A stretch of 64,000 nucleotides of DNA from an uncultured Thermodesulfobacterium sp. (GTDB lineage: Bacteria; Desulfobacterota; Thermodesulfobacteria; Thermodesulfobacteriales; Thermodesulfobacteriaceae): positions 1 through 64,000 of the forward strand of contig CALLJG010000005.1 in NCBI GenBank assembly GCA_938091335.1. Reading direction: 5' to 3'. A program made the translations under genes and the position numbers. Positions 3,268 to 62,599 of this stretch are shown piece by piece. The notes under the pieces were generated by a model. That model did no database searches. It had not been told where the DNA came from and saw nothing but the letters and a program-made list of their open reading frames with translations. Positions within the stretch are counted from its first letter, which is position 1. Every line of letters starts with the position of its first letter.

Positions 3268-4864
3268 TTGGTTTACAATCATTTTTTCAGCCCTTCTTTT
3301 AACTTTATCTTTCCCTAAATGGAATTTATGGTTTTTTGGTTTTTTTGCTTTGGTTCCTGTTATGTTTGTTTTTGTTCACATTAAAGAAAAAAAAGATATA
3401 ATCATTTTTTCCGCAATTTTTGGAATAATACATTTTTTAACCCTTATTTACTGGATTATTTATACTCTTGTCAAATATGGAAATCTTTCTTTTATATTTG
3501 CCTTTTTTATTTTACTTTCTCTATCTTTTTATTTAGCCTTATACTATGTAGTCTTTTTTTATTTAAATTTTATATTGGGAATTTTTAAAAATCCTTGTTT
3601 TTTAAAAGGTTTCCTTTTTGCCCTTAATTTTACTGGAATAGAATATCTAAGAAGTAAATTATTAAGTGGCTTTCCTTGGGGACAAATTGGATATGTTTTA
3701 AGTGATTTTTCTTTCTTTTTACAATCTGCTGACTTTTGGGGAATATGGGGATTATCTTTTACGGTAGCTTTAATTAATTACTATTTATTTTTTGTTATTT
3801 ATTCCTTTTTTCTTACCCAAAAGCCTTTTAAATTTTCTCATTTTTTGTTTTCTAATTTACCTTTTATTGTTTTTTTTGCTTTTCTTTTAGGTTATGGAAT
3901 TTATAAAAAAAATTTGTGGGAAAATCTTTTATCTCAACAAAATAAAAAAATAAAAGTTTCTCTTTTACAAGGAAATATTCCTCAAGAAATGAAAGAATTA
4001 AATGAAATTGAATTTTCTCTTAAAATATACCAAAATATGAGTTTTTTAGCTTTAAAAGAAAAACCAAACATTATTTTTTTTCCAGAAACTTCTTTTCCCT
4101 TTTTCTTTCCTTATGAAAAAAAATCCATTCTTGAATTCTTAAATTTTTTAGAAAACTTCAAAGATTATTCAAAAAAATTTGATCATCTTCCTATTTTAGT
4201 TTTTGGAACCTTTAGACTCAGTTATATCAAAGGAAAACCCCATGTTTATAATAGCTTAATTGTTTGGGATGGTAAAGGGTTTGTAGATTTTTATGATAAA
4301 GAAAAACTTGTTCCATTTGGAGAATACATTCCTTTAGAAAAATATCTTTCTTTCCTTAAAAAAATAACTGTAGGACTTGGAATTTTAAAATCTGGTATTT
4401 CAAAAAATCTCATAATTCCTTTTGAGCATAAAAACATAACAATTACTCCTCTTATTTGCTTTGAAAGTGCTTTTTCTGAAATATTGCAGAAAAGACTAAA
4501 ACAAGGATCTCAACTAATAATAATCACTACTAATGATGCTTGGTTTGGAAAAACATCTGCTCCTTATCAACATTTTCAAATGGCAAAAATAAGAGCTGTA
4601 GAGGCAAGAAAATATGTTATTCAAATAGCTAATACAGGGATTACAGGTATCATTGATCCAAAGGGAGAAATAGTTAAGAAAACAGAATTAGAAACTCGGG
4701 AAATTTTATCTGGCTATATTAAACCATTTTATGAGCCTACTTTGTTTATAAAATACGGGAATTACATAGGTATACTAGGGGCGAGCTTAATAATATTTGA
4801 ATTATTTTATTTTCTTTTCATAAATATTTTGCCAAGAATGAAATCCTTCTGGAGTAAGTTTTAA
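3251..4864 (+). CDS. lnt: Apolipoprotein N-acyltransferase
   Basis: Inner-membrane enzyme that adds the third acyl chain to lipoproteins, needed for their transfer to the outer membrane. The N-terminal half has six or more hydrophobic segments (about residues 5-215); the periplasmic nitrilase domain follows. The catalytic triad is visible as E279 (FFPETSF), K350 (YDKEKLVPFGEY) and C403 (PLICFES). A last membrane helix lies near residues 500-525. Length 537 is normal. The gene overlaps corC at its start, and its last 63 bases overlap the convergent ubiX gene, so the C-terminal tails of both proteins are encoded by the same DNA. Confidence 0.93.
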   Translation: MKNPINWFTIIFSALLLTLSFPKWNLWFFGFFALVPVMFVFVHIKEKKDIIIFSAIFGIIHFLTLIYWIIYTLVKYGNLSFIFAFFILLSLSFYLALYYVVFFYLNFILGIFKNPCFLKGFLFALNFTGIEYLRSKLLSGFPWGQIGYVLSDFSFFLQSADFWGIWGLSFTVALINYYLFFVIYSFFLTQKPFKFSHFLFSNLPFIVFFAFLLGYGIYKKNLWENLLSQQNKKIKVSLLQGNIPQEMKELNEIEFSLKIYQNMSFLALKEKPNIIFFPETSFPFFFPYEKKSILEFLNFLENFKDYSKKFDHLPILVFGTFRLSYIKGKPHVYNSLIVWDGKGFVDFYDKEKLVPFGEYIPLEKYLSFLKKITVGLGILKSGISKNLIIPFEHKNITITPLICFESAFSEILQKRLKQGSQLIIITTNDAWFGKTSAPYQHFQMAKIRAVEARKYVIQIANTGITGIIDPKGEIVKKTELETREILSGYIKPFYEPTLFIKYGNYIGILGASLIIFELFYFLFINILPRMKSFWSKF

Positions 4865-49663: not shown

Positions 49664-50823
49664 CTAACTCCTTTTTCACCTAATTCTAAGAGGGAACCTT
49701 CTTCTTCCTTTCTTCTTTGTTTTTTAATAAGATCAATCTGTCTTCCTACTATGTCTTTTCTAATTGCATTAGCAATAGCTATTTCTTCTTCTATAAGACC
49801 TTCTTTAAAAAGCTCAACCAAATTTTGATCAAAGGTCTGCATACCAAAAGCACTTCCTTGAGTCATTACATCATAGAAAGTTCTTCCTTCTTGCTCACCT
49901 GTCATTATTATTTCTCTTACTCTTAAAGTATTATATAAAATATCAAATACAGGAATTCTTCCTCCTCCAATTTTAGGAAGTAACTTTTGTCCTATAATCC
50001 ATTTTAAACAACCTGCCAATCTATATCTAATAGAATATTCTTCATCAGGAGCATAAAAACCTATTATTCTATTTAAGGTATGAGAAGCTCCTATAGTATG
50101 AAGTGTGGAAAACACTAAATGACCTGTTTCTGCAGCAGTTAAAGCTATATCCATAGTTTCTCTATCTCTTATTTCTCCTACTAATATTACATGAGGTGCT
50201 TCTCTCAAAGCTGATCTTAAGCCTTCAGCATATGAACTAAAATCAACTCCCAATTCTCTTTGTGTAATAGTTGCTTTAATAGGAATATGAACATACTCTA
50301 TAGGATCTTCTAAGGTAATAATATGAACATTTTCCTTTTTATTTATTTCATGAAGTATAGCAGCAAGGGAGGTAGTTTTCCCTTGACCAGTGGCTCCTGT
50401 AACTAATACTATTCCAAACCTCTCTTGAGCAATTTTATAAAAAACCTTTGGAAGTTCTAATTCTTCTATAGATTTAACCCTACCTTCAAGTTTTCTCATT
50501 ATTATGTTATAAGTTCTTTGACGAGAAAAGATATTTACCCTAAATCTTGTATAATCATCTAAAGAAAAAGATATGTCTACATATCCATCTTTAAGAAGTT
50601 TTCTAAAAGCCTTTGGTCTTTCTTTTAACATATTAAAAGCAATAGTTTCTGTTTGAAAGGGGGTAAGCTTTTCTATAAAAAAATCTTCAAAAAAAACAGG
50701 CTTTAATCTTCCATAAACCATTATTTGAAAGGGATATCCAGAAAGTATGAAAATATCTGAAATTCCTGGCTCTAAATGAGCTAATCTTCCAATTAATTCC
50801 TTAATTTCAAGTTCTCTTACCAT
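49660..50823 (-). CDS. pilU: PilT/PilU-type twitching ATPase, second copy
   Basis: Cytoplasmic hexameric ATPase of type IV pili, 387 residues. Walker A GATGQGKTTSLAAIL, the Asp box ITLEDPIEYVH, Walker B HVILVGEIRDRETMDIALTAAETGHLVFSTLHT region (read in parts) and the C-terminal region with MTQGSAFGMQTFDQNL. It is a paralogue of the adjacent upstream gene; Walker A (GQGKT versus GAGKS) and a longer C-terminus tell them apart. The name PilU is by position as the second of a pair. Spacing to pilT is 2 bases. Confidence 0.82.
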   Translation of the reverse strand: MVRELEIKELIGRLAHLEPGISDIFILSGYPFQIMVYGRLKPVFFEDFFIEKLTPFQTETIAFNMLKERPKAFRKLLKDGYVDISFSLDDYTRFRVNIFSRQRTYNIIMRKLEGRVKSIEELELPKVFYKIAQERFGIVLVTGATGQGKTTSLAAILHEINKKENVHIITLEDPIEYVHIPIKATITQRELGVDFSSYAEGLRSALREAPHVILVGEIRDRETMDIALTAAETGHLVFSTLHTIGASHTLNRIIGFYAPDEEYSIRYRLAGCLKWIIGQKLLPKIGGGRIPVFDILYNTLRVREIIMTGEQEGRTFYDVMTQGSAFGMQTFDQNLVELFKEGLIEEEIAIANAIRKDIVGRQIDLIKKQRRKEEEGSLLELGEKGVR

Positions 50824-50825
50824 TT

Positions 50826-51917
50826 TTAACCTGGTATTTCTGTAAAATCTTCAATTTCTCTATCCTGAATAAAAGGTAAAAATCTTGTTTTATCTATAGC
50901 CTTAATAAAGGCTTCTTCAGGAGAAATTAACCCTTTTTTTAAGTAATCCATTATACAATCATCTAAAGACATCATCCCAAACTTTTTACCAGTCTGAATC
51001 ATACCAGGAATTTGATGAATTTTATTTTCCCTAATTAAATTTCTTATAGCTGGGGTAGCAATCATTATTTCTGTAGCTACTATTCTTCCAGGTTTATCAA
51101 TTCTTTTAAACATAGTTTGAGATACTACTGCTCTTATAGCTTCTGAAAGAGAAACCCTTATTTGATCTCTTTCCTGAGGTGGAAAAGCATCTATTATTCT
51201 AGAAACAGTTTGAGCAGCTCCAATAGTATGCAAAGTAGAAAATACTAAATGTCCAGTAAGAGCTGCTTCAATAACAAGAGATATGGTTTCTAAATCTCTC
51301 ATTTCACCCACTAATATAATATCTGGATCTTCTCTTAATGCAGCTCTTAAGGCATTAGCAAAACTTTTTGTATGAATCCCTATCTCTCTTTGATTAATTA
51401 AACAATTTTTTGGCTCATGAACAAATTCAATAGGATCCTCAATTGTTATAATATGATCATATCTCATTCTATTAGCATAATCTATAATAGCTGCAAGAGT
51501 GGTAGATTTACCAGCACCTGTTGGACCTGTAACTAAAATAAGTCCCCTTGGCAAAAGTGCAAGTTTATTTAAAAGTAAAGGAAGCCCTAATTCCTCTACT
51601 GTTTTAATTTTATTAGGAATAAGTCTAAAAGTTGCTGCTATACCTCTTCTTTGACGAAAATAATTAATTCTAAATCTTGCAAGCAAAGGAACTTCATAAC
51701 CAAAATCAACTTCTCCTTCTTCTTCAAATTTTTTTATTATTTCTTCTGGAGCAATTTCATAAAGCATCTCTCTTAATTCATCTTCTTCAAGAACTTTATA
51801 TTTTATTCTTTGAAGATCTCCATGAACTCTTAAAACAGGTGGACTCCCTGCTGAGAGATGAAGATCAGAAGCTTGAGTATCTACCATCAATTTAAAAAAA
51901 GGATCAAGCTTTGCCAT
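50826..51917 (-). CDS. pilT: Type IV pilus retraction ATPase PilT
   Basis: A 363-residue motor that disassembles pili and drives twitching. N-terminal PAS-like domain with DLHLSAGSPPVLRVHG, Walker A GPTGAGKSTTLAAI, Asp box ITIEDPIEFVH, Walker B DIILVGEMRDLETI and the AIRNLIRE retraction motif (AIRNLIRENKIHQIP), which is diagnostic of PilT. First gene of the PilT-PilU-like pair. Confidence 0.93.
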   Translation of the reverse strand: MAKLDPFFKLMVDTQASDLHLSAGSPPVLRVHGDLQRIKYKVLEEDELREMLYEIAPEEIIKKFEEEGEVDFGYEVPLLARFRINYFRQRRGIAATFRLIPNKIKTVEELGLPLLLNKLALLPRGLILVTGPTGAGKSTTLAAIIDYANRMRYDHIITIEDPIEFVHEPKNCLINQREIGIHTKSFANALRAALREDPDIILVGEMRDLETISLVIEAALTGHLVFSTLHTIGAAQTVSRIIDAFPPQERDQIRVSLSEAIRAVVSQTMFKRIDKPGRIVATEIMIATPAIRNLIRENKIHQIPGMIQTGKKFGMMSLDDCIMDYLKKGLISPEEAFIKAIDKTRFLPFIQDREIEDFTEIPG

Positions 51918-51970
51918 AAAAAATTAAAGTTATCCTAAAATCCATTAAAATCAATCTATATTTAAAAATT

Positions 51971-52405
51971 TTATAAAGTTTTTTCTGTCCTACCTTCTAT
52001 ATGTACTTCCATAGCCTTGGTAATACAAACTGCTACACAAAATTCACAGGCAGTACATTTTTGAGAGTCAAAAAGAACATTAAAAGATTCTCTATCCACA
52101 TATAAAGCCCCTGTAGGACAAACTACTGTACAACTTCCACAATGAATACAAATATCTTCATTTTTTATAATCTGCTGTTCTAAAGGTCTAACCTCTACTC
52201 TCATCTCCCTTAGATATTCCAAACCCCTTTTCACCTTTTCAGGAGTACCCTCCAATTCCATAATCATTATCCCTTCTTTCCCAGGAGTGATAGTTGCTTT
52301 TAATATGTTAAATATTAAATCATATTCCTTTACCAATCTATATACTATCGGTTTATCTACAATTTCTGGAGGAAATTTTAAATATAAACCCTTTTTGTAT
52401 ATCAT
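51971..52405 (-). CDS. NIL domain-ferredoxin protein
   Basis: A 144-residue protein. The N-terminal NIL domain (about residues 5-75; YLKFPPEIVDKPIVYRLVK start) is the ligand-binding fold also seen after methionine ABC transporter ATPases. Two 4Fe-4S motifs follow (CIHCGSCTVVCP and CTACEFCVAVC). Archaeal proteins of this layout act in sulfur insertion for homocysteine formation together with a DUF39 partner. Here the upstream neighbour (10 bases) is a YcaO-TPR gene, so a shared sulfur or thioamide role is possible (inference). Confidence 0.85.
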   Translation of the reverse strand: MIYKKGLYLKFPPEIVDKPIVYRLVKEYDLIFNILKATITPGKEGIMIMELEGTPEKVKRGLEYLREMRVEVRPLEQQIIKNEDICIHCGSCTVVCPTGALYVDRESFNVLFDSQKCTACEFCVAVCITKAMEVHIEGRTEKTL

Positions 52406-52414
52406 TTTACATAC

Positions 52415-54157
52415 TCAGTTTTCTATATTTAAAATTGTCTTACAATATTCTAAACCTATTTTAGCTATAGTCAATTCTGGATCAAGTTCTAAAGCTTTTT
52501 TAAAATATATATGAGCTGCTGATAGATAATTAATAGCTTTTAAGCAATAACCTATATTAGCATAATCTATAGCTGAAGCAGGATTTAGATCAATAGCTTT
52601 TAAAAAGGCATCCATAGCCTTCAAATAATCTCCTAATTTATAATAGGCTCTTCCTATTATATTATATATCTCGGGTGTCTCTCCAATTTCTAAAATTTTT
52701 TCACCTATTTTTAAAGTCTTTTCATATTCACCTTTTCTAAAATAAGTATCTGCTAAATAAGAAAGTATAGCTATTTTATCATATTCAGGCGGATTACACT
52801 GTAAGGCTCTCTCATAACAAAATATAGCAGTAAGATCTTTATCTAACTCCTTATAAATGTTTCCTAAATAAGCCCAAAGATAATATCTATCATCTATCTC
52901 TTTTATTATCTCTTCAATAATTTCTTTAATTTTATCCTTTGGAAGATATAAAAATAAAGTCCTTATCATTTGATATAAATAAGAAATATATGTTCTTTCT
53001 CTAAAAAGAAAACCTGGAATAATAGCATAAACTGAAGGAATATTTAATTTAGGATGGGTTATATCTATCAAATAAATCTCATAATTTAGGTCTTTCAACT
53101 TTTTAGAAAGATTTAACAACTCTTCCACATGGTCTTCAGAATAAAGATTAGGTAAATCATCTAAATTTATTTCATGAGAATACTCAACTACATTTTTAGC
53201 CTCTTCTAAAGTGGAAAACTTAGGAAGCCCGCTTTCTACATATTTCCCCTCTGTATCAAAATCTCCTGCAAGTTGAGCTACCTCAGTTAAAGCCCTTATA
53301 ATGGCCCTCTGAGGAGAAGTTCCAGTTCCTGCTGCATAAACTATCTCACTTCTTTTAGGATAAGTAGAAGGATCCATAGCCATTATTGCAACTGTGGGAA
53401 CAGGCATATTAAAAGTCATATCTCTAATCCATAGATTAATTTTTAATTTTTCATAACACCTCACTAATTCATCTGCCTCTCCTTTTATAGATTCTCTTCT
53501 AATTGCAGGCATAGAAGAATTATTTTTAATAGAAATAGCATTTACATGTCTTTCTATTAATTCACATACTGCTTGAACACTTGCTTCAGCATAGGTATTT
53601 CCTCCCGCAGAACCATTATATTCGTAAAGGAGCCAAAACCAATGAAAAGGAATAAATCTTGTCTTTTTTGTTCTTACCTCAAAGGCTTTAACAAAATAAA
53701 AAGGAACTTTCTTAAGATAATTAATGGCAATCTTTTTTATTTTCTCAGGTTCTTCATCTTTAACAGAATTTAAAAATATCTCAAAAGGTAAAGCCTCTTT
53801 TTCTAATTCTTCAAAACTACTTAAAATGCCCATATGAGAAATTCCTTTATAAAAGGAAAATAAAGAAAATCTTTCTACTAATTCCATTAAAGCACTTGCT
53901 TGAGAAAGAGCTTCTGTTACTCCTTTCCCCATTTGCTTATAATTTCCCGTAATCTTTTGTCCTTCAACATCATAAAGACTTATATATACAGGTATCCCAA
54001 GCCTTCCTTTGTCAATCCTTTTAAGCCCCTTATAAATCTTCATCCCTAAAGACCTAAGTCTTTCCTCTACTTCCTTTATAGTATCTTCAGGAAATTTAGC
54101 TTTATCAGCTATAACCTTCTTTGAAGATTCTAAAAACTTTCTTTCTAAATCTTGCAT
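52415..54157 (-). CDS. ycaO: YcaO-domain protein with C-terminal TPR repeats
   Basis: A 580-residue protein. The ATP-dependent YcaO cyclodehydratase-type domain (about residues 60-400) shows the Glu-rich ATP site segments ALSQASALMELVERFSLF, GGNTYAEASVQAVCELIERH and RALTEVAQLAGDFDTEG. Three or more TPR units follow (about 430-575: YLWAYLGNIYKELDKDL, EIYNIIGRAYYKLGDY and AIDYANIGYCLKAINY). E. coli YcaO has the same layout and is tied to S12 beta-methylthiolation. No precursor peptide or oxidase gene is visible beside it, so peptide natural-product synthesis is unlikely. Confidence 0.85.
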   Translation of the reverse strand: MQDLERKFLESSKKVIADKAKFPEDTIKEVEERLRSLGMKIYKGLKRIDKGRLGIPVYISLYDVEGQKITGNYKQMGKGVTEALSQASALMELVERFSLFSFYKGISHMGILSSFEELEKEALPFEIFLNSVKDEEPEKIKKIAINYLKKVPFYFVKAFEVRTKKTRFIPFHWFWLLYEYNGSAGGNTYAEASVQAVCELIERHVNAISIKNNSSMPAIRRESIKGEADELVRCYEKLKINLWIRDMTFNMPVPTVAIMAMDPSTYPKRSEIVYAAGTGTSPQRAIIRALTEVAQLAGDFDTEGKYVESGLPKFSTLEEAKNVVEYSHEINLDDLPNLYSEDHVEELLNLSKKLKDLNYEIYLIDITHPKLNIPSVYAIIPGFLFRERTYISYLYQMIRTLFLYLPKDKIKEIIEEIIKEIDDRYYLWAYLGNIYKELDKDLTAIFCYERALQCNPPEYDKIAILSYLADTYFRKGEYEKTLKIGEKILEIGETPEIYNIIGRAYYKLGDYLKAMDAFLKAIDLNPASAIDYANIGYCLKAINYLSAAHIYFKKALELDPELTIAKIGLEYCKTILNIEN

Positions 54158-54231
54158 TTTTAGGATTTTAAAATAAAAAGATTTATAATATAATTAATTT
54201 TTCTAAACTATTATAAATCTATTTTTTAAAA

Positions 54232-55251
54232 ATGAAAGTAGCAGTAGCTATAAGTGGTGGTATAGATAGTGCAGTTAGTGCTTACATTTTACAACAAAAG
54301 GGTTATCAAATTATAGGAATAACCTTAGAACTTTTTGAGTCTCAAAAAGAGCAAATTAACAGGGCTAAAGAAATTGCTAAAAAACTTGAAATACAGCATA
54401 TTATTTTGGACTTAAAAGAGGTCTTTAATAAAATTATCATTTCTAATTTTGTAAATTCTTATTTTGAAGGAAAAACTCCAAACCCTTGTTGCTTATGTAA
54501 CAAAGAAATAAAGTTTGGAAAAGCCTTAGAATTTATGATAAAAAATTTTAATATAGAAAAATTTGCAACAGGACACTATGTAAGAATAGAAAAATATAAA
54601 GATTATCCTCTTCTTAAAAGAGCAAAAGATAAAGCTAAAGATCAATCTTATTTTTTAGCCTTGATAAATAATAAAATCATTCCTTATTTAATCTTTCCCT
54701 TAGGTGAGTTATATAAAGATGAAGTTATAGAGCTTGGCAAGAAAATATTTGATTTTTCTAAACATGAGGAATCTCAGGATATTTGTTTTTTAAAAAACAA
54801 ATCCCTTAAGGAATTTTTGTCTCTTTATCTTCCTAAAAAAGAAGGTCCGGTAATTTATAAAGATAAGGTAGTAGGAACCCATCCAGGAATTCATTTGTTT
54901 ACCATTGGACAGAGAAAAGGATTAAATCTCCCATTAGGGAAACCTTTATATATCATAAAATTAGATCCTAAAGAAAATAAAATTATTTTAGGAGAAGAGA
55001 AAGAGCTCTTTTCTAATGGGCTTATTTTAGAAATCCTAAACTCTCATCTTCCTTTAAACTTATGGGAGAGCCCCTCTGCTCAAATTAGATACAAAACTAT
55101 CCCCCATAAAATAAAAAATATTATAAAAAAGGAAAAAGAATATGAAGTCTTTTTTGAAACTCCGGTTAAAAGTATAACACCTGGCCAAATATGTGCCTTT
55201 TATGAAAAGGACCTTTTATTAGGTGGAGGAATTATAAAATCTCCAATTTAA
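54232..55251 (+). CDS. mnmA: tRNA-specific 2-thiouridylase
   Basis: Adds sulfur to U34 of tRNA Lys/Glu/Gln. PP-loop SGGIDSAVSAYIL (residues 8-20), the first catalytic Cys C86 in KTPNPCCLCNKEIKFG, then SQDICFL with the persulfide-forming Cys, and the AQIRYKT-P and ITPGQICAFYEKD blocks near the end. At 339 residues it is slightly short. The CCxC arrangement around C86 is a small variant. Single gene, divergent from ycaO. Confidence 0.93.
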   Translation: MKVAVAISGGIDSAVSAYILQQKGYQIIGITLELFESQKEQINRAKEIAKKLEIQHIILDLKEVFNKIIISNFVNSYFEGKTPNPCCLCNKEIKFGKALEFMIKNFNIEKFATGHYVRIEKYKDYPLLKRAKDKAKDQSYFLALINNKIIPYLIFPLGELYKDEVIELGKKIFDFSKHEESQDICFLKNKSLKEFLSLYLPKKEGPVIYKDKVVGTHPGIHLFTIGQRKGLNLPLGKPLYIIKLDPKENKIILGEEKELFSNGLILEILNSHLPLNLWESPSAQIRYKTIPHKIKNIIKKEKEYEVFFETPVKSITPGQICAFYEKDLLLGGGIIKSPI

Positions 55252-55293
55252 AGTTAAGTAAAAAAATTCCGAAAAAATAAAATAGATAAAACT

Positions 55294-55746
55294 ATGAAAC
55301 AGAAAAAAATAATTATAAGAGTAAAAAGAATAAATAATAAAGATGAAGAATATCTGATTGAGCCCTTAGAAGATCCAAAAATAAGAAAAACTGTTTTTTT
55401 TAGGTGGAAAGTTATAAATTTTCATCAAAAATATGGAACAAAGGCAACTATTGAGAATTTTAAAATCTCAAAGGCTACTTTATATAGATGGAAGAAAAAA
55501 TGGAAAGAAGCTGGCTGCAGATTAGAGGCTTTAATTCCTAAAAATTTTAACAGAAAGAAAAAGTGGTATCCTCAAATACTGGATTTTATCCTAAATTTCA
55601 AAAAAACTCATCCAAAAGCAGGGAAAAAAAACATAAAGTTATTTTGCGACAAATTTTGTAAAGAAAAAAATTTAGAATCTCTTTCAACTTCTACTATAGG
55701 AAGAATCATAAAATATCTAAAAGAAAAAAAACTAATTGAAAAATGA
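55294..55746 (+). pseudogene. Transposase/integrase remnant (HTH part only)
   Basis: A 150-residue frame with two helix-turn-helix regions (ATIENFKISKATLYRWKKKWKEAG about residues 50-73, given in part, and STSTIGRIIKYLKEKKLIEK at the end). This is the N-terminal DNA-binding half of IS481/IS3-like integrases. The DDE catalytic core (about 200 residues) that should follow is absent: the frame stops and noncoding AT-rich DNA leads to the pilin promoter region. No inverted repeats or target duplication were found. It is most likely a truncated element, or a domesticated DNA-binding protein. Confidence 0.65.
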
Positions 55747-55902
55747 ACCCCAAAGTCTCAAAATATGGAACTAATCTCTTGATTTTAAAAAATTTAATGA
55801 TAAATATCTCTCTAAAACACTAAAAACACTAAAAAGGGGGTGAGAAGGAAGATAAAAAGGATATTAGCCTATAAGTAAAATAAATTAAAAAGGAGGTAGA
55901 AG

Positions 55903-56298
55903 ATGAGGAAAAAAGGTTTTACCTTAATTGAATTAATGGTTGTTATTGCTATTATTGCTATTCTAGCAGCTATTGCTTTAACTTCTTATCGTGCATATCA
56001 AAGAAAAGCTCAAGCAAAAGAACTTATGACCTTCGCAAGGGCATGTATACAGGAAGCTATATCTCAGTGCCTTACAAACCCTAATTTTAATGCTTTTAGC
56101 ACTCTTGATGCTTGTCAGGCTCCGACACAAGGCACACAATATATTACTGGTATTACGATTACACCACCAAATAGTTGTAGTGAAAATTATATTGCAAAAG
56201 CAAGTGGCACAGTTGGAGGACAAACCTATGAAGTAACTTGTACTTATGATAAAACTACAGATGATGTAATTTGTGAAGCTCCAAAACGCACAGGTTAA
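55903..56298 (+). CDS. pilA: Type IV pilin (PilA-like), major pilin candidate
   Basis: A 131-residue prepilin. The class III leader is very short (MRKKG^FTLIELM) with Glu at +5 of the mature protein and a hydrophobic helix to about residue 30. Four Cys in the globular part allow disulfides (two likely pairs). The strongest ribosome site of the cluster (AAAGGAGGTAGA) suggests high expression. It is a tandem duplicate of the next gene, sharing QRKAxAKELxxxxRACxQEA and the C-terminal TTDDVICEAP/STDEIFCTPP region. Confidence 0.9.
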   Translation: MRKKGFTLIELMVVIAIIAILAAIALTSYRAYQRKAQAKELMTFARACIQEAISQCLTNPNFNAFSTLDACQAPTQGTQYITGITITPPNSCSENYIAKASGTVGGQTYEVTCTYDKTTDDVICEAPKRTG

Positions 56299-56310
56299 TG
56301 CTATAAAAAT

Positions 56311-56706
56311 TTGACCAAATCTGGGTTTAGCCTAATTGAATTAATTATAAGTATAGCCATCCTTGCAATTCTTGCAGGGATGGCTATTATTTCTTATACT
56401 TATTATCAGAGAAAAGCTAAAGCCAAAGAATTAATTATTCTATCAAGAGCTTGCCTCCAAGAAGCTCTTGCTAAATGTATTGAAAATTCCTCTTTTAATG
56501 ATTTTGAAAGTCTTTCTTCTTGTAATTTTCAGACCCAAAACACAACTTATCTTGAAAATATTCAAATAACTTTAACTGGAACCTGTAATAGTGAAATAAG
56601 TATTACCACTTCTGGGAAAATCAAAGGAACTGATATGACTTTTTCTGTGATTTGCTTTTATAATCACTCAACTGATGAAATTTTCTGCACCCCACCCACC
56701 TCTTAA
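56311..56706 (+). CDS. Second PilA-like pilin, tandem paralogue
   Basis: A 131-residue prepilin similar along its full length to the preceding gene, with leader LTKSG^FSLIELIIS. The only fitting start is TTG at 56311, 12 bases after the first pilin and without a recognisable Shine-Dalgarno, so it is probably translated by coupling at a low level. Four Cys are kept at matching places. It may be a minor pilin or an antigenic variant donor. It ends 16 bases before a hairpin element. Confidence 0.8.
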   Translation: MTKSGFSLIELIISIAILAILAGMAIISYTYYQRKAKAKELIILSRACLQEALAKCIENSSFNDFESLSSCNFQTQNTTYLENIQITLTGTCNSEISITTSGKIKGTDMTFSVICFYNHSTDEIFCTPPTS

Positions 56707-56722
56707 ACTACCAGGATTTTCC

Positions 56723-56749
56723 CACTTCGTAAGTGCCACTTACGAAGTG
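56723..56749. repeat. Inverted 13-bp repeat, probable bidirectional terminator between convergent pilins
   Basis: CACTTCGTAAGTG (56723-56735) and its exact complement CACTTACGAAGTG (56737-56749) are separated by one base. Each arm is itself a small hairpin (CACTT...AAGTG). The plus strand continues CTTCTTTATT, a weak U tract. It lies between the stops of two convergent pilin genes. The same 13-mer occurs twice more at 57169-57195. Confidence 0.75.
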
Positions 56750-56754
56750 CTTCT

Positions 56755-57132
56755 TTATTCACAATTTTGGCTTCCCGATTCAAACTCTGTACTCTCAGTA
56801 GTAAGAATACACTTACTATCACTTATTATACCTTTTCCATTACAAGTACATTGATAAACTTCTTCTCCAATAGGACTTACACTACAGCTTTGGGTATATC
56901 GGGAAATCCGTGTTGTACAATTATCAAAATTAGGGCTTCCCCCTGTTAAAGCAATTCTTGCAAGTTCAGCAGCAACACATGTAATACAGTTTCTTGTATC
57001 TGTTTGTAAAGAAGAACGAGCTGTTTTTCTTACATAACCCCTATAAACTGAAATGACCACTGCTGCCATAATTGCCATTATAGCAAGTGCAATTAAAAGC
57101 TCTGTAAGAGTAAAACCCCTCTTCTTTTTCAT
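56755..57132 (-). CDS. Third type IV pilin-like protein
   Basis: A 125-residue prepilin with leader MKKKRG^FTLTELLIA and a helix to about residue 30. The globular part is not similar to the two plus-strand pilins, has several Cys (CITC, CTTR, CSVS, CTC, SKC, NCE) and lacks charged segments. It lies on the opposite strand and is bracketed on both sides by copies of the 13-bp hairpin repeat. Ribosome site AAAGGGGGTG precedes the ATG. It could be a minor pilin or pseudopilin. Confidence 0.85.
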   Translation of the reverse strand: MKKKRGFTLTELLIALAIMAIMAAVVISVYRGYVRKTARSSLQTDTRNCITCVAAELARIALTGGSPNFDNCTTRISRYTQSCSVSPIGEEVYQCTCNGKGIISDSKCILTTESTEFESGSQNCE

Positions 57133-57166
57133 AAAACACCCCCTTTAAAATAATTTTCCCACCTTT

Positions 57167-57197
57167 CCCACTTACGAAGTGGCACTTACGAAGTGGG
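57167..57197. repeat. Tandem 13-bp hairpin repeat between holB and the third pilin gene
   Basis: Two direct copies of CACTTACGAAGTG (57169-57181 and 57183-57195) with flanking CC/GG, so the whole block can fold with a CCCACTT/AAGTGGG stem. The holB stop codon (57188-57186) lies inside the second copy. It may end holB transcription. The same 13-mer occurs in the element at 56723-56749. Confidence 0.75.
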
Positions 57198-58148
57198 AGA
57201 AGGTTGAAATATGGTATTAATAAGGTGGTAAAATGAAAGTTCTGGGTAGGCATAATTTTCTAAAGCAATTTTAGTCTGATAAACATTTTTAATAGCCAAA
57301 TAGGGATCTCCTTTAAAGGTCTCTTCTGGAAAAGCTTCAGGATAAGGATAATTTATTTTTTCTTTTAAATAGGATCTCCATATCCATATAATAAGAAGAT
57401 TTAAAAAATCTTCCCAATCTTGAAATAAAAAATTAGAAAGCCTTTCTGCAACTTTAAATCTTTTTTGAGCACTATTTAGGAATCCTGCTTTGACAAAGCT
57501 ATTAAGCTCTTCCAAAAGACCTTTCTCAGCTATGGTGATAGCCTTACCAAGACTTCCAAAAGATACCTCAGCAATAGTATCTGCTACTTTTTCTTCAAAC
57601 AAAAACCTTTTTTTCAAAACCTCCTTTATAACTGATTTAGGAAGGCTTCTAAATCTTATAATCTGGGAACGAGAAATTATAGTGGGTAATAATTTAGAAA
57701 AATTTTCCGTAAGTAATATAAAAAGAGCATAAGGAGGAGGTTCTTCTAAAGATTTAAGCAAGGCATTTCCTGCTTCTAAATTTATTCTCTCAGCTTCCTT
57801 AATAAAAATAATCTTATAATTTCCTTCAAGAGGTCTATATCTTAAAAAATTTATTAATTCCCTTATTTGACCAATAGTTATTTCTTTTTTTTCTGGGGTA
57901 ATTACAAATATATCTGGATGAATTTCTTTTTGTATTTTCTTACAAGCTTTGCATTCTCCGCAAGGATTGGTTGTATTTTCTAAACAAAATAAATGAAACA
58001 AAAAAGCCCATGCAGTAGTTTCTTTACCAACTCCTTTAGGACCTGTGAAAAGATAAGCATGATAAAGTTTCCCTTTTTTTAAAGAAAGTGTTAAAAGATT
58101 TATAGCTGGTTCTTGTTTTAAGATCTCTCCTAAGTTTTTAACTTTCAT
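57186..58148 (-). CDS. holB: DNA polymerase III delta' subunit
   Basis: Clamp-loader subunit, 320 residues. AAA+ domain with GPKGVGKETTAWAF, a zinc module (CLENTTNPCGECKACKKI) and LLKSLEEPPPYALFILLT. The sensor motif reads IISRSQIIRF, with Ser where delta' usually has Cys (SRC). The helical collar follows. The last codons run into the hairpin repeat, so the terminal SPTS is repeat-encoded. It overlaps murA by 11 bases. Confidence 0.88.
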   Translation of the reverse strand: MKVKNLGEILKQEPAINLLTLSLKKGKLYHAYLFTGPKGVGKETTAWAFLFHLFCLENTTNPCGECKACKKIQKEIHPDIFVITPEKKEITIGQIRELINFLRYRPLEGNYKIIFIKEAERINLEAGNALLKSLEEPPPYALFILLTENFSKLLPTIISRSQIIRFRSLPKSVIKEVLKKRFLFEEKVADTIAEVSFGSLGKAITIAEKGLLEELNSFVKAGFLNSAQKRFKVAERLSNFLFQDWEDFLNLLIIWIWRSYLKEKINYPYPEAFPEETFKGDPYLAIKNVYQTKIALENYAYPELSFYHLINTIFQPSPTS

Positions 58149-59406
58149 CTTCTACCACCTTTATATCTGCCCCAAGAGCTGATAATTTTTCTACTAAATT
58201 TTCATATCCCCTTTCTATCAATTTTATGTTATAAACAGTAGTAGTATTTTCAGCTATTAACCCTGCTAAAACAAGAGCTGCTCCTGCCCTAAGATCTGTA
58301 GCCTTAACTGGAGAACCAGAAAGAAATATTGGTCCATTTATGATAGCAGTTTTATCTTCTACCTTTATCCCTGCACCCATTCTATTTAATTCAAATATAT
58401 AAAGAAATCTATTTTCAAAAAGATTTTCTGTAATAAAGGAAATACCATTTGCTTGAGTTAAAAGCACTGCAAAAATTGGTTGAAGATCTGTGGGAAATCC
58501 TGGATAAGGAGCAGTAACAATTTTAGTAGGTTTCAATTCCCCTTCTCTTTTTACTTTGACAACATCTTTATCTAATTCTTCTAAAATAATTCCTATTTCT
58601 TGAAGTTTAAGAATTGGTGTTTCAAGGTGAGATTTTTTAATATTTTTTATTATTATCTCATTTTCTTCATTTAAGGCTGCTAAAATAAGAAAGGTTCCTG
58701 CTTCAATTCTATCAGGAATAACCTCTATCTCAATTGGTTCAAGTTTTTTCTTTCCTTTTATGTAAATAGTATCTTCTCCTAAACCTTTTATATCAGCTCC
58801 CATTTTTTTTAACATCTCTCCAAGGAAAACCACTTCAGGTTCTTTAGCAGCATTTTTTATAATGGTTTCACCCTCAGCTAAACTTCCTACCATCATCAAA
58901 TTTTCTGTAGCAGTAACAGATGGAAAATCCAAAACTATTATATCTCCTTTTAGTGCCTTAGTTTTTACTACAATGTTTCCTTTTTCTAAAGAAATCTCTG
59001 CTCCAAACTGAGATAAACCTTTAATATGAAAATCAACAGGTCTTTTACCTATAGCACATCCACCTGGTAAAGGAACTTGTGCTTCTTTAAAAATTCCTGT
59101 AAGGGCACCTAAAAAAAGAATAGAAGCTCTCATCTGACTTGCAAGCTCATAAGGAACTGAATTTAAATTCACATTAGAAGTATTTATCTCCAAATAATCA
59201 TTTTTAAACTTATACTTTGCTCCAAGATGCTCCATAATCTTTAATATATTAAAGACATCTCTTACCTTTGGAACTTTTTTTAATTTATAAGTTCCAGGAG
59301 CTAAAAGTGTAGCACATATAGCTGGAAGGGCTGCATTTTTAGCCCCACTTACTTCTATTTTCCCTTTTAAAGGAATTTTTCCTCTTATTACATATTTTTT
59401 TTCCAT
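58138..59406 (-). CDS. murA: UDP-N-acetylglucosamine 1-carboxyvinyltransferase
   Basis: First committed step of peptidoglycan synthesis. The N-terminal GAKNAALPAICATLL block carries the catalytic Lys-Asn, and the active-site Cys is C117 in PLPGGCAIGKRP, so the enzyme should be fosfomycin-sensitive in principle. Other blocks: DFPSVTATENLMM, PDRIEAGTF and PYPGFPTDLQP. Length 422 is typical. It overlaps prmC by 19 bases. Confidence 0.95.
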   Translation of the reverse strand: MEKKYVIRGKIPLKGKIEVSGAKNAALPAICATLLAPGTYKLKKVPKVRDVFNILKIMEHLGAKYKFKNDYLEINTSNVNLNSVPYELASQMRASILFLGALTGIFKEAQVPLPGGCAIGKRPVDFHIKGLSQFGAEISLEKGNIVVKTKALKGDIIVLDFPSVTATENLMMVGSLAEGETIIKNAAKEPEVVFLGEMLKKMGADIKGLGEDTIYIKGKKKLEPIEIEVIPDRIEAGTFLILAALNEENEIIIKNIKKSHLETPILKLQEIGIILEELDKDVVKVKREGELKPTKIVTAPYPGFPTDLQPIFAVLLTQANGISFITENLFENRFLYIFELNRMGAGIKVEDKTAIINGPIFLSGSPVKATDLRAGAALVLAGLIAENTTTVYNIKLIERGYENLVEKLSALGADIKVVEDES

Positions 59407-60227
59407 GCTAAAACAGCTCTCTCATATCCTTTCAAATCTTTATAAATCTTGAAATTCCATTGATAGATCTCTAATAACTCTTTAATTCTTTTTCCTTGAT
59501 TATATCCCATTTCAAAAATTAAAAAACCTTCTTTTTTAAGATATTGATGGGATTTTTTTAAAAGCTTTTCTTGAAATTCAGTTCCTTTTTCTCCTGAAAC
59601 AAGAGCTTCTTTAGGTTCAAAAAGTCGCACATCTTCTTCTAAGTCTTCCCACTCTCTTAAGGAAATATAGGGTGGATTTGAAATTATCACATCAAAAAGA
59701 GGAAATTTTTTAACACAAAAAAAGGAATCTCCTTTTATTAAAAACAGTCTATCTTGCACTCTATATTCTTTGGCATTTTTTTTAGCATTATCTAAAGCTT
59801 TTTTGCTTATATCAATTCCAAAGACCTTTAAATCTTTATTTTCAAGAAGTAAAGTTATAGCAATATTGCCTACCCCAACCCCAATTTCCAAAATAAGCCC
59901 TTTTTTAAAAGGAAGTTCTAAAAAAATAGAAATTAAAAGTTCAGTATCCTGTCTGGGAATTAAAGTACCTTCATCCACATAAAATTTTCTTCCCCAAAAG
60001 TAACAATAGCCAAATATATAGGGTAAAGGTTTTTTTGTTTTTCTTTCTTTAAGGATTTTTAAGAATTCCGGTTCAGGAATATCTTCTTCTAAGTGCAAAT
60101 ATACTTGAAGTGGAGGTATATTTAAAAAATGAGAAAGAATTAATAGTGCTTCCCACTTAGCATATTCTTTATCTTCTATTTCTGAAAGTGTTTTTTCAGC
60201 ATATTTTAATGCTTCTAAAACTTTCAT
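59388..60227 (-). CDS. prmC: Release factor glutamine methyltransferase
   Basis: Methylates the GGQ glutamine of release factors. The PLPYIFGYCYFWGRKF block, IPRQDTELL, SAM motif ILEIGVGVGNIAITLL and the catalytic NPPY (ISNPPYISL) are all in order. Length 279. Adjacent to a second methyltransferase gene (4-base overlap) and murA. prfA, its common partner, is not in view. Confidence 0.93.
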   Translation of the reverse strand: MKVLEALKYAEKTLSEIEDKEYAKWEALLILSHFLNIPPLQVYLHLEEDIPEPEFLKILKERKTKKPLPYIFGYCYFWGRKFYVDEGTLIPRQDTELLISIFLELPFKKGLILEIGVGVGNIAITLLLENKDLKVFGIDISKKALDNAKKNAKEYRVQDRLFLIKGDSFFCVKKFPLFDVIISNPPYISLREWEDLEEDVRLFEPKEALVSGEKGTEFQEKLLKKSHQYLKKEGFLIFEMGYNQGKRIKELLEIYQWNFKIYKDLKGYERAVLAWKKNM

Positions 60228-60871
60228 TCACTTTTTTTAAGTTTAAGCCTGTTTAAAATTATTTCTATAACTCTTTCTTCTTCTCTCAATTTTCTTATAC
60301 TTGTTAAAATTTCAAATTTTTCTTGAGCCATATATAAAAAAGGAATTAAAACCCTTTTTCTTTCTGAAGGATGAGATAAGACTACCTCTCCTTCTTTTTT
60401 TAAGTAATTTTTAAAAAGCTCAATTAAAGGTTCAAAAAGACTTTTCCTAAAAATTATCTCTGAGCCTATGATTAAATCAAATTTTTCAGAAAGCTTTGGA
60501 TTTCTCCAGTCAAGAAGCTGGGTTTTTATTTTTAAATTATTTTCTTTAGCTGAGAGTTCTATAAATTTAAGAGGTAATTCCTCATAGTCTGTAGCCAAAA
60601 CATCATGTCCAAAGCTTGCAGAAACAAGACTTGGAACTCCAAGTCCTGCCCCAAGTTCTAAAATCTTTTTTGGTGGTTCAATAGTTGCTAAATAATCAGC
60701 AAGAATTAAACTTGCTTCCCATACTTTTGACCAAAAAGGAAATTTTTCTACATCTAAAAAGGGATCCCCTTGGAATATTTCTTCAAGCTTTGCTGGAAGA
60801 AAAATCTTAAGAATTTTACCTCTAACATTAATTTCTTCTTTTTCTAAAGTGAGTTTTTCTAATTCTTGCAT
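60224..60871 (-). CDS. Class I SAM methyltransferase, METTL21/lysine-methyltransferase-like
   Basis: A 215-residue protein with SAM motif ILELGAGLGVPSLVSASFG (about residues 65-83), a following ATDYEEL acidic loop and LIIGSEIIFRK. The VWEASLILADYL segment before the SAM motif is typical of the METTL21/NNT1-like group, which methylates protein lysines. The substrate is unknown. It overlaps prmC by 4 bases. Confidence 0.78.
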   Translation of the reverse strand: MQELEKLTLEKEEINVRGKILKIFLPAKLEEIFQGDPFLDVEKFPFWSKVWEASLILADYLATIEPPKKILELGAGLGVPSLVSASFGHDVLATDYEELPLKFIELSAKENNLKIKTQLLDWRNPKLSEKFDLIIGSEIIFRKSLFEPLIELFKNYLKKEGEVVLSHPSERKRVLIPFLYMAQEKFEILTSIRKLREEERVIEIILNRLKLKKSE

Positions 60872-60892
60872 AATTGACTCCTTTGTAATTTT

Positions 60893-61633
60893 TTACATTC
60901 CTAAAAGAATAATTATTCCCAATAAAATTCTATAACCTATAAAAGGATATAAACTATATTTTTTTAAAAAAGACACTAAAAAAGCAATAGCTAAAAAGCT
61001 AAAAAGAGCTGAGGAAAAAAAGCCTGCTACAGCAAGATTAAAAGAAATTTGAGTTTCTCTAAAAAGCTTAAATCCTTCATAAACTCCTGCTCCAAGGATA
61101 AGAGGAGCACCTGCTAAAAAAGAAAATTTAGCTGAAATATCCCTTTTTAAACCTACAAGAAGTCCTGCTGAAATAGTAATTCCACTGCGAGAAGTTCCAG
61201 GAATTAAAGCTAAAGCCTGGAAAATACCTATTAATAATGCCTTGGTATAACTTAAATCCTTAATTTCATCTCTTTTTTTTCCAAAAATTTCGCCTAAAAT
61301 CATAGGTAAACACATAATTATAAGAGTTAAAGCCACTGCTAAAGAACTTCTGAAATAGGTCTTTATAATATCTTCCAAAAATAACCCAGCAAATGCTCCT
61401 GGTAAAGCAGAAATTAATATAAACCATTTATTAACCCATATTTCTCTTAAATCCTTAAAAAAATAAACTACTATAGCTAAAAAAGAACCTAAATGAATAA
61501 AAGCATCAAAACAAAGAAAAGAGGGAAAATTGAAAAATTTTTCAGCTATTATTAAATGACCTGTGCTTGAAATAGGTAAAAATTCAGTTAATCCTTGAAT
61601 AAAACCAAGTAATATTATCTCAAATAGATTCAT
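60893..61633 (-). CDS. uppP: Undecaprenyl-diphosphatase UppP
   Basis: Integral membrane phosphatase (246 residues, about seven or eight helices) that recycles the lipid carrier for wall and surface polymers. The two active-site motifs are GLTEFLPISSTGHLII (about residues 15-30) and LIPGTSRSGITI (about 155-166). It gives basal bacitracin tolerance in many bacteria. Confidence 0.95.
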   Translation of the reverse strand: MNLFEIILLGFIQGLTEFLPISSTGHLIIAEKFFNFPSFLCFDAFIHLGSFLAIVVYFFKDLREIWVNKWFILISALPGAFAGLFLEDIIKTYFRSSLAVALTLIIMCLPMILGEIFGKKRDEIKDLSYTKALLIGIFQALALIPGTSRSGITISAGLLVGLKRDISAKFSFLAGAPLILGAGVYEGFKLFRETQISFNLAVAGFFSSALFSFLAIAFLVSFLKKYSLYPFIGYRILLGIIILLGM

Positions 61634-61642
61634 TGAAAAATT

Positions 61643-62599
61643 TTATAAATATCTTTTTTTGCGAAGAATAAATAAAAGGGAAAAGCATAAAAATGCAGTA
61701 AAAAGATTGATAAAATAAAAGGCATGGGGAGAATGTTTAAAGGGAGGAAGCTCTTGAAAAGGTAAAGGAATATTCATTCCATACATACTATAAATTATAT
61801 TAGGAATAGCAAGAATAATAGCAATACTTGCTAAAAGTTTCATAATAAGGTTTAAATTATTATTAATAACCGAAGCATAGGCATCCATTGTTCCAGCTAT
61901 AATATTTAGAAAAACTTTAGTCATTTCAATAGCTTGCCTGTTTTCAATTTGTACATCCTCTAAAAGCTCCATATCCTCTTCAGTTAATCTAATATATCTT
62001 CCACTTTGAATTTTGGTAAGTACAGTATCATTTCCTTGAAGAGAAGTATTAAAGTAAGTAAGGGTCTTTTCAATACTTAGCATCTTTAAAATTTCTTCAT
62101 TCTCGATAGATTTAAATACTTCCTCTTCATATTCTTCTAAGGTTTTATCAATTTGGCGAAGAAGTTTAATATAAAGGGAAGTTACTGCTAACATAAAGTT
62201 CAAAATAAAATAAACAGGCTTGTTTAAATCAAAGGCTTTACTCCTATTAGCAAGAGCTATAAATTCCTCAAAGATAGGATGATCCTTTAAACAAACTGTT
62301 ATAATATTTTCTTCAGTTAAAATGATACCAATTGGAATAGTTTCATATTTAATAAAAAGACCTCTTGTAACCACATCAGGAATTCTTAATATTATTAAAA
62401 TTTGTTGTTCCTCTTTTTCTATTCTAGGTCTTTCTTCTTCATCAAGTGGATATCTCAAGAACTCGGGAAAGATGTGAAATTTTTCTTCTATATAGGATAT
62501 TTCTTCTTCTGTGGGATTAAATAGACATACCCAAACATTGGGCAAAATTTTTTCTGCAGGAATAAGAAGTCCTTTTTCAGATTTATAAATTCTGAACAT
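61643..62599 (-). CDS. corA: CorA-family magnesium/divalent cation channel
   Basis: A 318-residue protein with a large cytoplasmic domain (1-255), a long helix and two C-terminal membrane helices. The signature YGMN is found in SMYGMNIPLP (about residues 281-284) just after the first helix. The charged KKRYL end is typical. It moves Mg2+ (or Co2+/Ni2+). It precedes uppP by 9 bases. Confidence 0.92.
   Translation of the reverse strand: MFRIYKSEKGLLIPAEKILPNVWVCLFNPTEEEISYIEEKFHIFPEFLRYPLDEEERPRIEKEEQQILIILRIPDVVTRGLFIKYETIPIGIILTEENIITVCLKDHPIFEEFIALANRSKAFDLNKPVYFILNFMLAVTSLYIKLLRQIDKTLEEYEEEVFKSIENEEILKMLSIEKTLTYFNTSLQGNDTVLTKIQSGRYIRLTEEDMELLEDVQIENRQAIEMTKVFLNIIAGTMDAYASVINNNLNLIMKLLASIAIILAIPNIIYSMYGMNIPLPFQELPPFKHSPHAFYFINLFTAFLCFSLLFILRKKRYL

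Follow-up and report, generated by a model that had tools for sequence, protein, structure and literature searches.

The four copies of a 13-bp repeat that bracket a type IV pilin-like gene in Thermodesulfobacterium are best explained as REP hairpins, arranged in two REPIN-like doublets, of a single-copy REP/RAYT system. We put the probability of this reading at about 0.92. The repeat is real and its cause is ordinary, namely the REP elements of a RAYT; what is less ordinary is the non-GTAG hairpin core found across phyla. The first-pass annotation had offered "REP-like" as one guess, which was right in kind: the elements are of the REP type and have a cognate RAYT, as judged by its fold, its PDB match and its flanks. 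For the pilin the outcome is deflationary, with no switch and no cassette. REP/RAYT biology gains a thermophile lineage whose repeat population is small and tractable, with 11 hairpins and one enzyme.

The genome under study (G000) comprises 1.39 Mb in 17 contigs, and the window, the whole stretch of DNA analysed, is bases 1–64000 of contig C5. The 13-mer CACTTACGAAGTG occurs in four exact copies at 56723–57195, as two doublets around the third pilin gene. The outer copy of the left doublet, L1 (56723..56735), lies on the minus strand and reads CACTTCGTAAGTG on the plus strand; it was assigned by exact match and by membership in the genome-wide family. The inner copy, L2 (56737..56749, plus strand), is 5 bp away from the pilin stop. 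The right doublet consists of R1 (57169..57181, plus strand), the copy closest to the pilin start, and R2 (57183..57195, plus strand). The two copies are inverted relative to each other on the left and direct on the right, with a period of 14 bp in both doublets. When up to 2 mismatches were allowed, no copy beyond those four was found in the 64-kb window; four were observed against 0.32 expected, and 0 of 100 shuffles reached four. A single 13-mer forms a hairpin with a stem of 5 bp and a loop of 3 nt, and within the window the repeating unit is the doublet. RNA folding of 51–56 nt stretches containing each doublet was far better than that of shuffles (z −3.75 to −5.3).

Two tandem pilin genes of 131 aa each, at 55903..56298 and 56311..56706 (the second listed with a TTG start), are encoded on the plus strand. 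The third pilin-like gene (56755..57132, 125 aa, Pfam N_methyl) is on the minus strand, directly downstream of holB (57186..58148, minus strand), which was identified by NCBIfam as the DNA polymerase III delta' subunit. The last codons of holB lie inside R2 together with the stop TAA, 57186–57188 on the minus strand. HolB is an essential gene in E. coli. The first-pass description of this locus holds in its details: the four copies, inverted on the left and direct on the right, are exact and beyond chance, the holB stop is inside one of them, and the enclosed pilin is convergent to the tandem pilins and dissimilar to them (36% and 29% identity, partial alignments). A separate hairpin of 16 pairs (G-T allowed) with a T-rich tail is found at 56353–56387 on the plus strand, within the beginning of the tandem pilin 2 coding sequence.

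The genome search for the 13-mer, as suggested earlier, gave 9 exact copies, with none for the reversed control. The pattern CACTTNNNAAGTG, with the 3-nt loop free to vary, occurs at 11 places in the genome, and its control at 1. These copies group into seven clusters: both doublets of the window, two further ones at C5:323983–324697, and three singlets at C7:15112, C8:20980 and C10:46353. By crude ORF calls none of the seven is wholly inside a gene, and one overlaps the end of holB.

The second bracketing pair of doublets encloses an ORF of 206 aa (C5:324018–324635), a HuH/Y1 transposase of the RAYT/TnpA_REP type. It is present in a single copy, about 267 kb from the window repeats on the same contig, with an argH-like gene on one side and a porin-like gene on the other (both named by eye). 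The protein matches NCBIfam NF047646 REP_Tyr_transpos with an E-value of 2.7e-18, its 66.3 bits falling short of the curated cut-off (80). Its Pfam match is Y1_Tnp, with 3.9e-6 and 27.4 bits (cut-off 23). The sole match of a PDB sequence search with E up to 0.1 was 4er8, E. coli TnpA_REP (8.2e-6). The structure used was the AlphaFold model of the T. hydrogeniphilum RAYT orthologue (pLDDT 91.8), whose best fold match is also 4er8, which shows a RAYT in complex with a REP hairpin (Foldseek 3.2e-7). VIA-align of this model with 4er8 gives Z 15.2 over 148 aligned residues with rmsd 2.8; the next best Z is 9.9, for IS608, and ISDra2 gives 8.8. The HuH pair and the tyrosine align, and the aligned residues span 1 to 202 of the model. 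The RAYT differs from E. coli TnpA_REP in the low identity in the fold alignments (14–15%) and in being about 40 residues longer. Residues H76, H78 and Y136 are invariant in all six aligned RAYT sequences, and Pfam detects no HTH domain in any of the 8 RAYT proteins scanned.

Orthologues of this RAYT (66–72% identity) are found in 5 of the 14 genomes of the genus, G000, G002, G005, G009 and G012, with one match each. All five carry palindromes on both sides of the gene: G000 and G005 have a doublet on each side, G009 and G012 a doublet on one side and a single on the other, and G002 a single on each. The RAYT gene adjoins the argH-like and/or the porin-like gene in all five (by eye; the G012 contig ends just past the RAYT). 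The same neighbours in all five indicate that the RAYT is a single-copy, "domesticated" resident and not a jumping IS. The exact 13-mer is present in the same five genomes and in none of the other nine (Fisher 0.0005, kinship not taken out). A loose hairpin pattern gives 9–23 copies in the genomes with RAYT, versus 0–4 in those without. The RAYT-minus genomes have 17 loose-pattern sites, of which five were examined. Among the three in G004, two still have a TAC/GTA foot that pairs and resemble relics; the other three examined sites have no such paired foot. The absence of RAYT from nine of the 14 genomes implies loss or later gain.

Outside the genus, the exact 13-mer occurs in G016 (2 copies) and G027 (1 copy), and the protein search of 30 family genomes found no match to this RAYT in G016. 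G027, from the same order, has 22 Y1_Tnp matches, many of them split hits in frames of about 300 aa, and thus an expanded Y1 family of a different make-up from the lone RAYT of G000. A more distant RAYT, with 48% identity and an NHFH motif, was seen in G020. It is flanked by CACCT-GTC-AGGTG-like palindromes (L131 1150–1175 and 2080–2103), with a similar stem and a different loop.

The hairpin anatomy was compared in 79 hairpins from the five RAYT-carrying genomes. The loop contains CG in 78; the exception, in G012, has the loop AAA and lies inside an ORF, and it was counted in the gene context and excluded from the foot analysis. The foot sequence varies by genome yet often pairs. TAC/GTA is the foot of 14/20 hairpins in G002, 12/23 in G005, 10/16 in G009 and 3/9 in G012, and TCG/CGA is that of 3 hairpins in G005 and 1 in G009. 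The outer arms in G000 are TCC/GGA, paired across whole doublets and in one singlet. Judged by the loop, the two copies run in opposite directions in the left doublet of the window and in both doublets at the RAYT, with a 1-bp spacer. A REPIN is two inverted REPs with a short spacer, and the direct right window doublet is unlike it in this respect.

A GT[AG]G tetranucleotide 0–2 nt 5′ of the foot was found for 6 of 78 hairpins, and the four such matches in G000 probably stem from the neighbouring hairpin of a doublet. With so few matches, the element is not a textbook REP. The available text of PMC6006769 describes non-GTAG "atypical" structures in subclass 2.6 and class 3; the missing GTAG therefore bars the term canonical REP, not that of a REP-like element of a RAYT. 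A second REP family is seen in G005 and G009 (L120, L127, L130), with a TCG/CGA foot and an ACG/CGC loop, in addition to the TAC/GTA family found on either side of the single RAYT. Members of this second family are paired in places, at a distance of 42 bp with AT-rich DNA between them, and an enzyme of its own is not evident.

The pilin locus in the sister genomes bears on the proposal of the first-pass annotation that the pilin is a mobile or invertible cassette. In such a cassette the doublets would be the ends or inversion sites, and the pilin would be carried by the RAYT or by a recombinase. Doublet layout is much the same at the pilin and at the RAYT, and the segment could in principle pass as a two-ended unit. 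Orthologues of pilin 3 occur in G005 (81%), G009 (62%) and G012 (62%), in each directly downstream of holB, in unchanged orientation and facing the tandem pilin(s); in G002 and G004 holB is present and pilin 3 does not adjoin it. The left doublet is absent from G005, G009 and G012 and was seen in G000 alone. The pilin thus keeps its place and orientation in all three sister genomes with an orthologue, none of which has the left doublet, and the mobile or invertible reading fails on this count. The arms of such a cassette would be 13 bp only, and at E ≤ 0.001 pilin 3 has no further copy in G000 besides the tandem pilins. No site-specific recombinase was seen by eye among the ORFs at 50000–62000, where the one transposase-like item is a 150-aa HTH protein. 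Altogether a cassette is very improbable. That HTH protein (55294–55746, plus strand) lies between mnmA and the pilins, matches HTH_32 and weakly the N-part of IS481/IS630 transposases, and is possibly a domesticated transposase part. A 173-aa look-alike lies beyond the pilins in G005 (L112 4847–5368; by eye).

The bracket is instead explained by two REP sites of different history. The left doublet sits in a 48-bp spacer (56707–56754) between the stops of pilin 2 and pilin 3, and this spacer is missing in G012, which has a 4-bp overlap of the two stops, and in G009, which has 4 bp between them. Most simply, the left doublet would be an insertion between the convergent stops, a direction read from the gene coordinates (a spacer against an overlap or a gap) and not from an empty-site alignment. 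Loss in the relatives is possible as well, and pilin 2 in G005 has itself decayed. By eye, the second tandem pilin of G005 seems cut to an N-terminal remnant beside the pilin 3 stop (L112 ~4165–4290). At the end of holB, G005 carries TACCACTTCCGAAGTGGTA, G009 a hairpin with one mismatch and G012 a hairpin in decayed form. R1 has a counterpart at its position in all three, altered or decayed in G009 and G012. The holB stop codon is thus supplied by a REP in G000 and by an altered hairpin in G009, there as TGA. Comparison of these sequences suggests that the right-hand REP site probably predates the divergence of these species. The left doublet being private and the right site shared with relatives, the bracket is two separate REP sites and not a cassette.

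The gene context of the clusters bears on two other readings, in which the hairpins are bidirectional terminators or mRNA-stabilising structures with no tie to transposition, or operators of a DNA-binding regulator with the pilin and the RAYT as regulon members. The 63 clusters of the five genomes, by crude ORF calls, comprise 28 between tandem genes, 18 between divergent genes, 11 in ORFs, 4 between convergent genes and 2 at contig edges; 52 are not wholly within an ORF as called, the coding share of these loci being 91%. The left doublet does fold as a 12-bp hairpin between convergent genes, with a terminator-like score on the plus strand and a weak T-rich tail, and a secondary terminator or 3′-end role for it is possible. 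A pure terminator repeat is unlikely on gene context, given the excess of divergent over convergent sites. The earlier alternative of just a terminator repeat at convergent gene ends genome-wide is not what the genome presents: of the seven clusters in G000, 1 is convergent, 3 are divergent and 3 tandem (crude ORF calls). Moreover, repeat presence within the genus tracks RAYT, and the bracket around the RAYT would be left unexplained. We regard hairpins of this kind without a tie to transposition as quite improbable. Operators find some support in the near-palindromic 13-mer and in the same 18 divergent clusters. Against them, the same core flanks RAYT genes of other phyla, and the bases outside the core differ among genomes, yet pair in many copies, so that a hairpin fits better than a fixed operator. 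The regulon reading is very improbable.

On the model of E. coli TnpA_REP, the REP/RAYT reading implies the following course. The RAYT would bind the hairpin in single-stranded DNA, would nick and rejoin hairpin DNA via Y136, and may rarely copy doublets into intergenic DNA. The singlets elsewhere in the genome would be decayed remnants of doublets. At the pilin locus, the right doublet would occupy an old REP site at the holB 3′ end, shared with sister species, and the left doublet would be an insertion; two separate REP events would then have bracketed a gene that stayed put. Should the repeats affect the pilin mRNA, for instance by protecting its 3′ end or by termination, this would be a secondary effect.

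The system resembles known REP/RAYT systems, as described in the available text of PMC2817692, PMC6006769 and PMC8049555, in its single-copy HuH/Y1 gene with a Y---NP motif and palindromes on both sides. The likeness extends to palindromes that recur in intergenic DNA as doublets and singlets and are commoner where the gene is present, and to a gene that keeps the same neighbours in sister species. The accessible part of PMC8049555 describes RAYTs as single-copy genes with vertical inheritance and most REP singlets as REPINs in decay, and the pattern here agrees with this. Unlike the known systems in these partial texts, 72 of the 78 hairpins here have no GT[AG]G guide at the foot; the hairpins have a short 5-bp core stem, a CG-containing 3-nt loop and few copies, and the enzyme has THxH in place of DHuH or NHuH, the HuH motifs given for the subclasses in Table 1 of PMC6006769. 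REPs are GTAG- or CGTC-tagged in the available portions of PMC2817692 and PMC3733652. Those of the E. coli TnpA_REP subclass are mostly long, bulged and GTAG-tagged, as far as the accessible text of PMC6006769 goes. IS200/IS605 elements share the Y1 transposase family and subterminal hairpins; the present gene differs from them in its one copy per RAYT-carrying genome of the genus, its class 2 Y---NP motif and the presence of the repeats also without the gene.

Several observations weigh against the REP/RAYT reading. The copy number is low, 11 in G000 versus 37–427 perfect copies per genome for Stenotrophomonas REPs in the available part of PMC2817692; the NCBIfam score is under the cut-off, and GT[AG]G is rare. 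Further points against it are G016, which has 13-mers without a RAYT match, G027, with one 13-mer and numerous Y1 genes built differently, the hairpins left in RAYT-minus genomes, and the direct right doublet. No mention of the hairpin 13-mers was found in published text, supplements being outside the search, and nothing relevant was found in the literature on REP/RAYT in this lineage. The available portions of PMC2817692 and PMC3733652 hold no mention of Thermodesulfo, Nitrospir or Desulf(o).

Relatives of the RAYT outside the genus extend the association of enzyme and hairpin. A scan of named genomes from many phyla gave 270 relatives, of which the best 80 were taken, 77 of these loci being outside the genus. 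Within 300 bp of the RAYT, the 80 loci hold 93 CACYT hairpins with a CG loop in 46,780 bases, and farther out 13 in 357,675 bases. The core CACYT-NCG-ARGTG is near the RAYT at 38 of the 77 non-genus loci, on both sides in 32. A looser core, with CACC-N5-GGTG allowed, is found at 54 loci, on both sides in 49, and at none of the remaining 23. A motif-free count of 5-bp stems with 3-nt loops near the gene gave CACCT as the commonest (32/77 loci), followed by CACTT (9); farther out these stems occur at 7 and 4 loci.

Genome-wide counts are in line with this for RAYT genomes outside the genus, 17 of the 20 having been picked since a hairpin beside the RAYT had already been seen. Here CACYTNCGARGTG occurs in 19 of 20, with 2 to 51 copies against 0–1 for the controls. 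The median core density of these 20 genomes is 3.8/Mb. It is 0.38/Mb in 58 other genomes from the phylum to which the window belongs, a background of one phylum whose member G114 seems, since the coordinates are identical, to be the genome of L193, a RAYT carrier. Of the 59 genomes of this phylum, 39 have some copies, the maximum being 8 save for G000 (11). The three of the 20 without a strict core beside the RAYT have 31, 27 and 0 copies, and the assemblies with 31 and 27 appear to hold another RAYT locus with the core (L205, L232). Ten further genomes with a RAYT and no nearby core have 0.77/Mb, a group not above background (p 0.12); six of them have any copy, three with 10, 12 and 25. The repeat-RAYT link is thus looser outside the genus.

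The stem type follows the RAYT phylogeny. On a tree of 82 RAYTs, in which 21 of 78 inner branches are well supported, it requires 25 changes versus 37.9 when shuffled, with 0 of 200 shuffles as low; this clustering fits co-evolution, and near-copies contribute to it. The THxH motif is present in all 82 sequences, which are near relatives of one query, and THuH in 81. These data incline us, by a narrow balance, towards a distinct THxH RAYT clade that keeps one non-GTAG core, CACYT-NCG-ARGTG, with enzyme and hairpin matched across phyla. Its members come from Thermodesulfobacteriota, Omnitrophota, Nitrospirota, Campylobacterota (Hippea), Planctomycetota, Elusimicrobiota and others. If this is true, recognition would proceed through the stem and the CG loop in place of a GTAG guide. 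The core of the clade lacks the E. coli-type GTAG guide, making guide-independent recognition directly testable. This cross-phylum core together with the THxH RAYT clade may be a new point.

The placement of the clade among the described RAYTs can be taken in two ways. The Y[IV]HLNP motif in the sequences points to subclass 2.1 (Bertels group 1), with which the clade shares the Y[IV]HLNP and W[EQ] motifs. Subclass 2.1, in the available text of PMC6006769, is without REP-like flanks and has NHuH motifs and C-terminal HTH-like domains, unlike the present proteins with their REP-like flanks, their THxH motif and no Pfam HTH. The THxH clade may be a new subclass, or it may be group 1 with REPs after all. 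Beside an Omnitrophota RAYT (L186, upstream of 3001), nested palindromes of up to 77 bp were observed that contain several REP cores.
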